From: Picosynechococcus sp. PCC 7117
GTDB taxonomy: Bacteria; Cyanobacteriota; Cyanobacteriia; Cyanobacteriales; MRBY01
Assembly: GCF_001693275.1 (NCBI RefSeq)
Contig: NZ_CP016477.1
Coordinates: 496,001 to 560,000, forward strand
Length of the DNA stretch: 64,000 nt
Direction of reading: 5' to 3'
Part shown: positions 53,535-57,323 of the stretch, in pieces
Layout: each line of letters starts with the position of its first letter
Numbering within the stretch: the first letter of the stretch is position 1
Notes under the pieces: generated by a model
Told to the model about the DNA's origin: nothing
Seen by the model: the letters and a program-made list of their open reading frames with translations, nothing else
Databases searched by the model: none
Position numbers and translations under genes: made by a program

Positions 53535-53766
53535 GTTTCGAGGTCAAAACAATTTGCTGAGGAGATAGGGAGGTAAACTAGCGGCATAAGAACCATTAAT
53601 TTTGGTTTCAAAACAAATTTCTGAAGACATTATTAGCAAAACTTATTTTAAATTGCTAATTATTTTGGATTTTTAGGGTTGTTTTTTAAAATTATTGTTA
53701 ATTTCAAGCGGGATTCATTTCGGTTTTTCGATTACATTTAATTAGTGTGTGTGGAGATTTTCTGTC

Positions 53767-56160
53767 GTGAATATCAAGTCCTATTCCGGAGTCGTCGCTG
53801 GTGTCGTTGCTTCTACAACAGTTTTAGTTACCCCAGCCCAGGCAGCAAATATACAAGTACGGGAACTGGCGGTACGGCCAGGAGATGGCAACCTAGAGCT
53901 CGCCCTTAGTCTTGCGCCAGAGAGTGCACATCTGTCTGGTGAGAAGCCCCAGGTTTCGACGACCCAAAAAGACCGGGTACTCATTGCAGAAATTGCCAAT
54001 GCACGGCTAGATCTCGGCAATGGACAGGATATTTTCAGCCAAGATAATCCTTTACCGGGGATTGAGCGCATCGAGGTGATGGAGTCGGCTCCGGGCAATG
54101 TCAAAATCGTCGCCCTAGGGGAAGTGGCAGCACCAAAAGGGGAAATCCTCAGCCAGGATAACAACAGCATTTTGCTCAATGTGACCACCTCGACAGCAGG
54201 CACGACAGAAACGGCCCAGGTCACAGAGCCCTCCACGGTAATTGAACCGACCTTGTTAGCCCAGAGTACCCCCAGCAGTAACAATCAAAATAATTTCCTC
54301 CAACCGACGGCCCCCATCCCACCGTTTTTACCAAGGGCCAGTGCGCCACCAGTGGGGGATATTGCGGTTTCGACAATTGATACGACCCTGCCTAGCTATG
54401 TGAATCTACAAACAAATGCAATGGTACCTCGTCTTGTACTGAAGGAAGCTCCCATTGAGGATGTGATGTCTCTGTTGGCCCGCGCTTCCGGTCTCAATAT
54501 CGTTGTGGGCAATGATGTAAAAGCACCTGCCGGGGAAGGTGAAGCGCCACCTGTTACCGTCTCTTTAGATATGCAAAATGCGCCTGTGCAAGATGTCTTT
54601 AACTACGTCTTAATGCTTGGTGACCTCAATGCTGTGAGAAATGGCAACACAATTTTTGTCGGGAGAAATCTGCCCTTTGCGATCGCCCCCAGGATTACCC
54701 GCAGCTTCCGATTGAATCAGGCAACTCCTGAAGAAGCCCGCTGCTTTTTGATTACTGGTGATTCTACAGTTTCTGAAACAATTAACGAAGAAAGAACGGT
54801 AGAAACAGCGGAATCTGCTTTTTCTCTAAGTGAAGAAGGTAGCGATATACCCACATCCCGGACTCAAAGCACATCGGTAAGTAGAGAGGTGACAAGAACT
54901 TGTTCCAAGACGCCAACAGAAGAAGAACTTGCCCGTGGTTTACTATCTCGATTTAGTAGTTTAGATATCCTGACGGATGCACGACTAAAAACAATTACTT
55001 TGGGTGGCGATCCCAAAACTATTGAAATTGCCAGTAATTTTCTTAAGCAGTTAGATGCTCGTCAGCGGCAAGTGGCAGTAAATGTCAAAATTATCGACGT
55101 AACACTCACTGGAAATCGTTCTATCTCTTCTGATATTAAACTTTTGCTTGAAGATCGCATCGGAATTAGCGCTGGAGACGGAATAATTTTATCCCCTAAT
55201 GATCTCTCCAGAGGTAGCAGCATTTTTTCTGAATTCAATCCTGCTGGCATTGTTGTTGAGCAAGGCAATCAGGAAGTTTCTTTTGGGGAAGCTTTTGATG
55301 CTTTCGATGGCTTGGATCCTGAAAATACAGTTTTTGTTGGGCCAATTACCGAAGCTCTCGAAATTGCCGGTCAAACAGGCATCACAGTTACAGATCCCAA
55401 TCAGGTTGCAGCAGTAATTCGTACAGTTGATGATTTGGGAAATGTTAGCCTTTCTATTCAAGGACTTGGAGTACAAAAAAATAATTCTATTGGTCGGGGA
55501 ACTAACTTTATTGGTAATTTGGTTGCTGGCTTACTGCGCAATACAACCTCGAAAATTATCGCTGATCCCACTTTAATTATTCAGGAGACAGAAACAGGAG
55601 AATTACGGGTTACCGAACAAATTATCAATAGTGTAGAAATCGTGTCAGGTAATGCTAATACGACAGCGACGAACAACAATACTACATCTACTGCTTTACC
55701 AGAACCTGTACTTGCCGAAGTTGGTCTATTTGTACCGATCACGGTGGAGAATGTTGATGATAATGGTTTTATCACCCTAAACGTTACTCCTGAGGTCTCT
55801 GCTCCTTCTGAAGAGGTTGTCTTTGAGGCTGGTGATAGTAGAAATATTTTGACTCTCAAACGTCAAAGTATTCTAAGTTCTGGTTCTGTTCGTCTCCGAG
55901 ACAATCAAACACTCGTTCTTGCTGGAGCAATTGACGAACGGGATATTGTAACAACCAGTAAAGTGCCTATCTTAGGCGATATTCCTATTCTCGGTTCATT
56001 ATTTAGAAGCACGTCTAGAGAAAACAGTCGTCGTGAACTACTTTTTATCATCACGCCGCAAGTTATTGATGATTCTCAGAATGCGATGTGGGGTTACGGC
56101 TATCAACCCAGCGAAACAGCCCGTGAAATGCTAGACAATGCCCGTTTCCCCACCCGTTAA
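53767..56160 (+). CDS. pilQ: Type IV pilus secretin PilQ
   Basis: A 797-residue outer-membrane secretin. It starts at GTG 53767 with GGAG ten bases upstream (an earlier in-frame GTG lacks a site). A signal peptide (GVVAGVVASTTVLVTPAQA) precedes an AMIN-like domain (about 30-130), N-domains (VPRLVLKEAPIEDVMSLLARASGLNIVVGNDV, NVKIIDVTLTGNRSISSDI) and the secretin core (SKIIADPTLIIQETETGELRV...NITPEVSAP...VRLRDNQTLVLAGAIDERDIVTTSKVPILGDIPILGSLFRST). The variable loop rich in Ser/Glu between N-domains (about 330-390) is longer than in Proteobacteria. It forms the pore through which pili leave the cell, including for natural transformation. Confidence 0.95.
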   Translation: MNIKSYSGVVAGVVASTTVLVTPAQAANIQVRELAVRPGDGNLELALSLAPESAHLSGEKPQVSTTQKDRVLIAEIANARLDLGNGQDIFSQDNPLPGIERIEVMESAPGNVKIVALGEVAAPKGEILSQDNNSILLNVTTSTAGTTETAQVTEPSTVIEPTLLAQSTPSSNNQNNFLQPTAPIPPFLPRASAPPVGDIAVSTIDTTLPSYVNLQTNAMVPRLVLKEAPIEDVMSLLARASGLNIVVGNDVKAPAGEGEAPPVTVSLDMQNAPVQDVFNYVLMLGDLNAVRNGNTIFVGRNLPFAIAPRITRSFRLNQATPEEARCFLITGDSTVSETINEERTVETAESAFSLSEEGSDIPTSRTQSTSVSREVTRTCSKTPTEEELARGLLSRFSSLDILTDARLKTITLGGDPKTIEIASNFLKQLDARQRQVAVNVKIIDVTLTGNRSISSDIKLLLEDRIGISAGDGIILSPNDLSRGSSIFSEFNPAGIVVEQGNQEVSFGEAFDAFDGLDPENTVFVGPITEALEIAGQTGITVTDPNQVAAVIRTVDDLGNVSLSIQGLGVQKNNSIGRGTNFIGNLVAGLLRNTTSKIIADPTLIIQETETGELRVTEQIINSVEIVSGNANTTATNNNTTSTALPEPVLAEVGLFVPITVENVDDNGFITLNVTPEVSAPSEEVVFEAGDSRNILTLKRQSILSSGSVRLRDNQTLVLAGAIDERDIVTTSKVPILGDIPILGSLFRSTSRENSRRELLFIITPQVIDDSQNAMWGYGYQPSETAREMLDNARFPTR

Positions 56161-56164
56161 CCAT

Positions 56165-56231
56165 CCGTAGGGGCTTGGTTCCCATGCCCTTGGTTTCCAT
56201 TATTTTGGATTTGGAAACCAAATCCCTACGG
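56165..56231. repeat. REP hairpin upstream of the RAYT gene
   Basis: Two 19-base arms, CCGTAGGGGCTTGGTTCCC and GGAAACCAAATCCCTACGG, are near-perfect reverse complements around a 29-base spacer. A related palindrome follows the transposase gene, and the right arm recurs in the tRNA-Arg intron. Confidence 0.9.
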
Positions 56232-56239
56232 TTATTGCG

Positions 56240-56824
56240 ATGGCAAATCGATATAATCCGCAAATTCATCATCGGCGCTCCATTCGTTTGAAATCTTATG
56301 ATTACAACCGGGCAGGCGCATATTTTGTGACAATTTGTGTGCAGGCCCGTGAATGTTTACTTGGCACGATCACGGATAAAATCTTGCACTTAAACGAGTA
56401 TAGAAAAATTGTTGAACAAGTTTGGAATTATTTGCCTAGACATTTTGAAAATCTAGAAATTGATGCCGCCGTGATTATGCCCAATCATTTTCATGGCATC
56501 TTAATTTGTACCGAACCTGAAACGACAGATTTCCCTGTGCCACCGCCAAAAGATGCTTTTAACGCCATTCGCAACAAAGGCGATCGCCCTTTTTACGAAC
56601 AAAAAACAAACCTCGGCAAAATCATCGCCTATTTTAAATATCAAACAACGAAAAAAATCAACCAAAAACGCGGTCTAGTTGGGACAAAAATTTGGCAAAA
56701 AAACTATTACGAGCACATTATTCGCCATGAAAAATCTCTCAATATCCTCAGAGAATACATAGAAAATAATCCCTACAATTGGCACACCGACCAATTACAC
56801 CCCAATATCCCATCGAAATGGTAG
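56240..56824 (+). CDS. REP-associated tyrosine transposase (RAYT)
   Basis: A 194-residue Y1-type HUH single-strand DNA transposase. YFVTICVQARECLLG starts the core, the HUH motif is MPNHFHGIL (His83, His85), and the candidate nucleophile is Tyr156 or Tyr157 in WQKNYYEHIIRHEKSL. ENNPYNWHTDQLHPN is typical of RAYTs. Unlike IS200 transposases it is encoded once, flanked by REP hairpins, and thought to disperse REP sequences. The ATG lies nine bases after the left REP; the right REP begins within its stop codon. Catalytic residues are intact, so activity is plausible. Confidence 0.9.
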   Translation: MANRYNPQIHHRRSIRLKSYDYNRAGAYFVTICVQARECLLGTITDKILHLNEYRKIVEQVWNYLPRHFENLEIDAAVIMPNHFHGILICTEPETTDFPVPPPKDAFNAIRNKGDRPFYEQKTNLGKIIAYFKYQTTKKINQKRGLVGTKIWQKNYYEHIIRHEKSLNILREYIENNPYNWHTDQLHPNIPSKW

Positions 56825-56880
56825 GGATTTGGTTGCCAGGGGATTTCATAATAATGGGATTTGGAGACCAAATCCCTACG
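56820..56880. repeat. REP hairpin downstream of the RAYT gene
   Basis: GTAGGGATTTGGTTGCC pairs with GGAGACCAAATCCCTAC across a spacer of about 25 bases. The first arm overlaps the transposase stop codon, and the hairpin ends seven bases before the tRNA-Arg 3' end. Confidence 0.9.
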
Positions 56881-56924
56881 GGAAAAACGGGACTGGCCGG
56901 ATTCGAACCGGCGACCTAGCGCTT

Positions 56925-57247
56925 CAGATTGGTGTGGGTTTCCCCAACTCTCTGGACTATCTCTTCACCCTAGAACTCAGGATTTAGTAATCAAATCCCT
57001 GCGGTTTCCGTAGGTGGTGGCCGTTATGCTGGGTTGGCGATGACCTTTCGCTACAAACGTTAGCATTCAAGATCCTCAAAAAAATTTGCCCCAAAACCAA
57101 CCTGCTAGTCTCTGCACCTTCCTCCGGCGAGGCACCGAAAGGCTTGGCTCAGGGTTACCCTATGATGAAAATTTCCATCACTTAGGCTTCCTTGAATTTG
57201 ACCACATTCAGCCATGGCGTTTCCGATCCATGCTGCCCGAAAGATTC
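56925..57247 (-). other. Group I intron in tRNA-Arg(CCU), probably subgroup IC3
   Basis: A 323-base self-splicing-type intron. P1 forms from exon CCU plus GAA with internal guide UUCGGG, placing the required U-G wobble at the 5' splice site. Conserved core strands appear in order: TCAAATTCAAGGAAGCCTAAG (P-Q region, 20-base part TCAAATTCAAGGAAGCCTAA), AAGGTGCAGAGACTA (R/P7) and GAAGAGATAGTCC (S/P7 3' strand). The last base is G, as needed. These elements resemble the Azoarcus tRNA-Ile intron. No homing endonuclease is encoded. A REP-like block (56980-57004) lies between R and S, probably in a P8 extension. Confidence 0.9.
56980..57004. repeat. REP-like arm inside the tRNA-Arg intron
   Basis: These 25 bases match the right arm of the REP at 56207-56231 at 21 of 25 positions by hand count (GGATTT...CAAATCCCT-CGG). 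A short related piece (TTTCCGTAGG) follows to 57014. It lies about 155 bases from the RAYT stop. Confidence 0.8.
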
Positions 57248-57323
57248 AGGAGGCGCTTGCTCTATCCTGCTGAGCCACAGCCCCAATAAAGCGCCCAAAT
57301 TATAACATAGCTTTTTTTCTATG

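Follow-up and report, generated by a model that had tools for sequence, protein, structure and literature searches.

A REP-derived hairpin in the P8 arm of a tRNA-Arg(CCU) group I intron beside a RAYT in Picosynechococcus sp. PCC 7117

The group I intron that interrupts tRNA-Arg(CCU) in Picosynechococcus sp. PCC 7117 carries, in the arm of its ribozyme known as P8, a hairpin derived from the REP sequences of the transposase gene next door. At the level of sequence, both the REP origin of this block and its standing as a real extension of P8 are confirmed, and we put at roughly 0.85 the probability that one REP was copied into this length-variable arm and has been decaying there since. The window analysed here is a 64-kb stretch (C1:496001-560000) of the 3.43 Mb genome (G000 below), and coordinates given without a locus or contig label are positions within it. 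The genome encodes PsaA and PsaB and is thereby cyanobacterial, the same search responding, among 14 control genomes, in Synechococcus elongatus only.

The transposase cassette occupies the gap between a secretin gene (53749-56160, plus strand; Pfam Secretin, 111.8 bits) and tRNA-Arg(CCU), in the order secretin gene, left REPIN, RAYT (REP-associated tyrosine transposase), right REPIN and then the tRNA on the minus strand. In the left REPIN the outer REP, GTAGGGGCTTGGTTCCCATGCCC (56167-56189, plus strand), matches the REP pattern with 1 mismatch and the inner REP, GTAGGGATTTGGTTTCCAAATCC (56207-56229, minus strand), with 0 mismatches. The RAYT gene (56240-56824, plus strand) is intact and encodes 194 aa; its product contains a Y1 transposase domain (PF01797, 24.7 bits against a cut-off of 23) with HUH and tyrosine motifs assigned by eye, the motifs MPNHFHG, IWQ and YIENNP being legible in the translation, and it scores 57.5 bits (E 1.3e-15) against NCBIfam REP_Tyr_transpos, which is under that model's cut-off of 80. 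The gene is single-copy in the genome and has REPINs made of its cognate REPs on both sides. The right REPIN consists of an outer REP (56821-56843, plus strand; 3 mismatches) and an inner REP (56857-56879, minus strand; 1 mismatch), the latter nine positions from the tRNA 3' end. Just as an earlier reading of the sequence alone (the sequence-only reading) had described, this REPIN overlaps the end of the RAYT and stops seven bases short of the tRNA: the RAYT stop codon TAG (56822-56824) lies within the GTAG head of the outer REP, and the REPIN finishes, with CCCTACGG, at 56881, the tRNA 3' end being at 56888. Between the RAYT and its ortholog in the relative G002 (87% protein identity) there are 16, 9 and 46 differences at codon positions 1, 2 and 3, with dN 0.06, dS 0.38-0.51 and dN/dS of about 0.12-0.17, and the gene has evolved under purifying selection since the two split.

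Introns in tRNA-Arg(CCU) are known from alpha-proteobacteria. In the window the tRNA runs on the minus strand as a 5' exon (57248-57284) and a 3' exon (56888-56924), both read from the sequence and conserved in relatives, and is interrupted immediately 3' of the anticodon CCU by a group I intron of 323 nt (56925-57247, minus strand); in this interrupted form it was missed by ARAGORN. The intron ends follow from exon logic (the anticodon CCU, then GAAT...ATCTG, then AAGCGC) and agree with the boundaries proposed from the sequence alone. Rfam Intron_gpI (RF00028) matches at 56932-57257 on the minus strand with 63.1 bits (gathering score 50; model 1-253), and the intron has both the conserved group I core (P3, P7 and P8, by RF00028) and the terminal G, ending as it does in ATCTG. 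The Rfam alignment, with positions set by eye, places the 5' strand of P7 (element R) at 57106-57110 and its 3' strand (element S) at 56954-56960, both on the minus strand. Between them, where the sequence-only reading had located the block, lies a P8 arm of 47 nt (56968-57014, minus strand) delimited by the alignment and by folding of the arm alone. Each of six genomes of the genus has one RF00028 match, which is this intron.

In some relatives, homing-endonuclease ORFs of the LAGLIDADG_2 family lie within tRNA-Arg introns of about 0.9 kb (L028:1807-2250, 74.9 bits; L030:1720-2097, 61.8 bits), so that the intron family can be mobile, and similar exon spacing in L018, L020, L025 and L029 suggests more long introns that bear ORFs. 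Three close group I intron matches also occur on each of two contigs (G082:C119:7963-10877 and G106:C2:594441-595820), as if several introns were set in one gene or operon.

Within P8, at 56980-57002 on the minus strand, the arm holds GCAGGGATTTGATTACTAAATCC, a hairpin whose head reads GCAG in place of GTAG and which is identical at 20/23 positions to the consensus REP of the neighbouring RAYT. A recount returns the same 21 of 25 identities that had been claimed between 56980-57004 and the left arm at 56207-56231, and gives 20/25 against the right-hand arm at 56857-56881. Read on the minus strand from 57002 to 56980, the block departs from the pattern GTAGGGATTTGGTTNCCAAATCC at 3 positions; with at most 3 mismatches allowed this pattern has 0 matches in 100 shuffles of the window, and its reversed control has 0 in G000 and 1 across the six genomes (in G004). 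The best of 2000 dinucleotide shuffles of the intron reached 17/23, against the 20 observed. Because P8 is a hairpin regardless, random hairpins are the fair null, and against the REP consensus these reached 20 in 2 of 200,000 draws and at least 18 in 20 of 200,000. In a set of 136 group I introns from the order, drawn from the matches listed (6 from the genus, then 30 and 100 more, with 14 listed non-genus rows omitted), the intron of PCC 7117 scores 20, that of G002 scores 18 and the other 134 score 11-15; seven further introns from among the omitted 14 scored 12-15. When the P8 arms of 13 genomes are compared directly with the consensus, the values are 20/23 for G000, 18/23 for G002 and 10-12/23 for the other eleven. 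Judged by these comparisons, the similarity of the block exceeds what chance, or the convergence of one hairpin on another, would be expected to yield.

The block forms a hairpin, as an imperfect palindrome, in the arm fold of both G000 and G002, and it comprises a single REP, the second REP of a REPIN being absent from the intron. Its head is not that of a GTAG REP: it reads GCAG in PCC 7117 and is missing in G002, where the match consists of an 18-nt hairpin. With the GTAG head broken, the block is better termed REP-derived than an intact REP, and a fossil rather than a mobile element in place. The proposal that a REP-type mobile sequence resides in a catalytic RNA is upheld for its origin and its position in P8, and the block is probably no longer mobile.

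The same intron in the same tRNA is found in six genomes of the genus (G000-G005). G002, at 92% identity to G000 over tRNA and intron, has GATTTGGTTATCAAATCC in its P8 and a RAYT with both REPINs at the same place; in G001, G003, G004 and G005 the tip of P8 differs and no RAYT lies at this tRNA. A REP-like P8 is accordingly present in 2/2 genomes with the RAYT and REPINs beside the tRNA and in 0/4 without, and the prospect that relatives lacking the RAYT might share the block, which would have marked it as native intron, is not borne out in any of those four introns. The secretin gene adjoins the tRNA in G004 (tblastn 52%) and G005 (53%) as well, with no RAYT between, and G003 has a RAYT of 42% identity elsewhere in its genome, with another REP stem. 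Contig C32 of G005 (L047, L048) contains a 272-aa frame with two separate RAYT-similar pieces, possibly a longer RAYT variant. The intron tree joins G000 and G002 with a support of 0.966 (96% identity over aligned columns); since these are sister species their REP-like P8 counts as one event, and since there is one event only, the fact that it coincides with the RAYT carries no statistical weight by itself. An exact empty site is absent among the genomes compared, G001, the next relative (82% over tRNA and intron), having a different P8 tip.

For the order at large, P8 length was taken as the gap between CCTA and GGTGAAG, a pattern that demands exact flanking bases and is escaped by other introns. 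The arm was found in 98 of 388 genomes, with a gap of 4-26 nt in 87, 27-57 nt in 12 and 58-88 nt in none, G007 appearing in both of the occupied classes. No second REP-like P8 came to light among these 98 genomes, only those of G000 and G002, the 12 long arms having been scored and the short ones inspected by eye; most of the eleven other arms that were folded (28-61 nt) form hairpins with unrelated sequences. As sampled in the 98 genomes, P8 reads as short in most, as bearing unrelated hairpins in some and as bearing a REP once. One of the 12 long arms, on contig C445 of G007, is not on the contig that holds the tRNA-Arg of that genome and may belong to another intron. G007 also has a different, GTAGGGG-headed hairpin just downstream of the same tRNA-Arg and outside the intron (L021, near 1631, minus strand), so that REP-like hairpins at the 3' end of tRNA-Arg are not unique to the window. 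Hairpins of at least 8 bp with a GTAG or GCAG head (one mismatch allowed) occur in 4/136 introns from the matches listed (L106, L133, L164 and L091); they are GTAGG-headed, have TCAAG in the stem or loop and stems unlike the REP of PCC 7117, and, judged by eye, resemble a native hairpin common to the four introns and not REPs.

The REP family of PCC 7117 is small. A pattern with an A/T stem finds 6 matches in the genome at up to 3 mismatches, the intron copy included (reversed control 0), and a looser pattern finds 10 at the same tolerance (reversed control 2); by these counts the family is repeated but far from high copy, and appears hardly amplified. Four of the six A/T-stem matches lie outside the RAYT flanks, among them the intron copy, which is 100 bp from the flank, and the stem recurs at other places in G000, G002 and G003. 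REPs distant from the RAYT in G000 and G002 (L031, L034, L038, L041 and L043) share flanking sequence with one another, as might result from the copying of a larger intergenic unit that included them. Homologues of the RAYT are present in 29/60 genomes, G000 included (E <= 1e-10), and hairpins headed by GTAGGG, with various stems, stand at 15/31 RAYT loci, a count made without a shuffle control. When G000 and G002 are excluded such hairpins are found at 13 of 29 loci, two of which are pieces of one gene; none has the stem seen in PCC 7117, and 16/29 loci show no such hairpin by the criterion used. As RAYT homologues carry GTAGGG heads on other stems, the head is to be assigned to the RAYT system, with the intron as recipient. 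Birth of the REP family from the intron is disfavoured by those other stems and by the occurrence of the G000 stem at other sites.

The copying of one REP into P8 most probably went as follows. In the common ancestor of G000 and G002, a single REP hairpin of the RAYT's own family would have been copied into the tip of P8, at a point 100 bp away from the cassette's terminal REPIN, and the ribozyme would have tolerated a self-pairing insert in an arm that is peripheral and variable in length. Decay would have followed in both lineages: in G000 the head would have changed from GTAG to GCAG along with two stem positions, and in G002 the head would have been lost and one position changed. The insert is now probably only structural filler of P8, and probably immobile. 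Against this account count its single occurrence, the want of an exact empty site, the absence of a second REP, the headless 18-nt match in G002, the lack of recurrence among the 98 genomes and the 16/29 RAYT loci at which no GTAGGG hairpin was seen. We infer, on this account, a single insertion, its direction from REP to intron, its tolerance by splicing and its present immobility.

As to how the REP was copied, insertion catalysed by the RAYT is about as likely as template switching, or recombination, that involved the REP nearby, and we would place each a little short of an even chance. Under template switching, the native P8 strand CCTACGG would have annealed to the neighbouring REP during replication, with the REP copied in as a consequence. 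CCTACGG forms one end of the REPINs, within the CCCTACGG that terminates them at 56224-56231 and 56874-56881, and is complementary to the REP head CCGTAGG; it also opens P8 in G001, G002, G004 and many other genomes of the order, and so predates the insert. The presence in P8 of a single REP, not a REPIN, points the same way, and the closeness of the intron copy to the flank, in a genome with only four matches outside the RAYT flanks, favours a local event. A local hop by the RAYT would be near too, however, and no junction is preserved well enough to discriminate. For insertion by the RAYT speak the intact gene next door, under purifying selection, and the GTAG head of its REPs, which is that described for RAYT-linked REPs; set against it are an activity that is predicted and a family so little amplified (10 loose-pattern matches, 2 in the reversed control). 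The sequence-only reading had named the neighbouring RAYT as the probable mover of the block. In that role the RAYT is a candidate: both genomes with the block have it, but they share one event, and the nearness of 100 bp to another REP fits template switching or recombination equally well. Convergence, by which P8 would have grown a self-pairing extension that resembles a REP by chance, both being simple hairpins, is very improbable: P8 does often grow hairpins, as the eleven mostly unrelated arms attest, but random hairpins equal the match in only 2/200,000 draws, the shuffled-intron and 136-intron nulls likewise disfavour it, the match includes a GNAG head that pairing would not require (three of its four bases are unpaired in the arm fold), and within the genus such a match is confined, over six genomes, to those with the RAYT and REPINs alongside.

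Since the copying of the REP into P8, the head has gone by a T to C change in G000 and by a deletion in G002, and the hairpin has been kept in both. The head CCGTAGG is an exact complement of the native strand that it would face in P8, and folding of the arm alone supports a conflict between the two: the base of P8 pairs with a probability of ~0.92 in G000 and 0.91 in G002, which falls to 0.07 when the head is given the T of the REP and to 0.16 with the full REP consensus. Folds of the whole intron, which cannot hold the P3-P7 pseudoknot, give almost no P8 in either G000 or G002 (at most about 0.02); when the strands of P3 and P7 are blocked, G000 prefers the head hairpin (~0.77) over P8 (0.10), and P8 reaches 0.77 in G002 and 0.88 in G001. 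The T head does worse than the C head in all three fold settings. It is conceivable, if rather unlikely, that the insert has been domesticated, in that an intact REP would misfold P8, the two lineages would have broken the head independently and the hairpin would have been retained as a working part of the ribozyme; a disarming of the head by selection on splicing is, on these modelled folds, only a hypothesis.

A short mobile repeat has been described in a group I intron before. In the dsrA 'MITEtron' of Candidatus Thiomargarita nelsonii, P9 of such an intron contains a MITE that bears a long hairpin (PMC4853749); the case has in common with the P8 insert a hairpin-bearing short mobile repeat, found across its genome, in a peripheral region of the ribozyme. 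As far as the accessible text of that report goes, the MITE has homologs on >100 contigs, the intron interrupts a protein gene and no parental transposase was identified, whereas in PCC 7117 the repeat is a REP of low copy number, the arm is P8, the intron interrupts a tRNA gene and the cognate RAYT is adjacent. The sequence-only reading knew of no described REP insertion into a group I intron. The literature searched, from which subscription papers are largely absent, likewise yielded none, with the qualification that a MITE in such an intron is published (PMC4853749, in its accessible part). GTAG-type REPs, as portrayed in the available portion of PMC3733652, occur in cyanobacteria and elsewhere with a GTAG head, a short stem and a small loop, often as dimers 20-100 bp apart, and GYAG variants and insertions inside genes have been described; the REPs of PCC 7117 share the head, short stem and small loop, and the intron copy differs in having a self-splicing RNA as host. 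A word search of the text of that study returned no mention of introns.

The RAYT itself has relatives of record: its NHFH, WQ and YIENNP, by eye, fit the motifs NH[IFV]H, WQ and YIxNNP of subclass 2.4, which is abundant in cyanobacteria, and the accessible pages of the same paper place REPs within the RAYT gene itself (PMC6006769), not, as here, in a neighbouring ribozyme. The cyanobacterial trnL(UAA) intron has heptanucleotide repeats in P6b and resembles the present case in having a repeat-built, length-variable peripheral arm in a tRNA group I intron (PMC4476775), although the part of that work at hand describes no link to a transposase, in contrast to the RAYT-linked REP of P8. IStrons, such as CdISt1, combine an insertion element with a group I intron (CdISt1 is cited in the accessible part of PMC6006769, IStrons in that of PMC4853749), and the transposase is there reported to lie within the intron's large hairpin (PMC4853749); in PCC 7117 the RAYT (56240-56824) lies outside the intron (56925-57247), which has no transposase gene within it.

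That short mobile repeats insert into genes is known; what is unusual here is a REP with a catalytic tRNA intron as its host. Being one event shared by two sister species, and with a MITE in an intron already on record, it is more of a curiosity than a new principle, and the insert looks like a tolerated relic, a one-off in the genomes searched. The locus is a concrete case of a bacterial REP as part of a catalytic RNA, with RAYT, REPINs and recipient ribozyme side by side. It makes testable whether REPs are spread locally by RAYTs or by replication errors, and how much of a foreign hairpin the arm of a group I intron tolerates before tRNA splicing suffers. If domestication were true, a hairpin linked to a transposase would have become fixed as a functioning component of a catalytic RNA.
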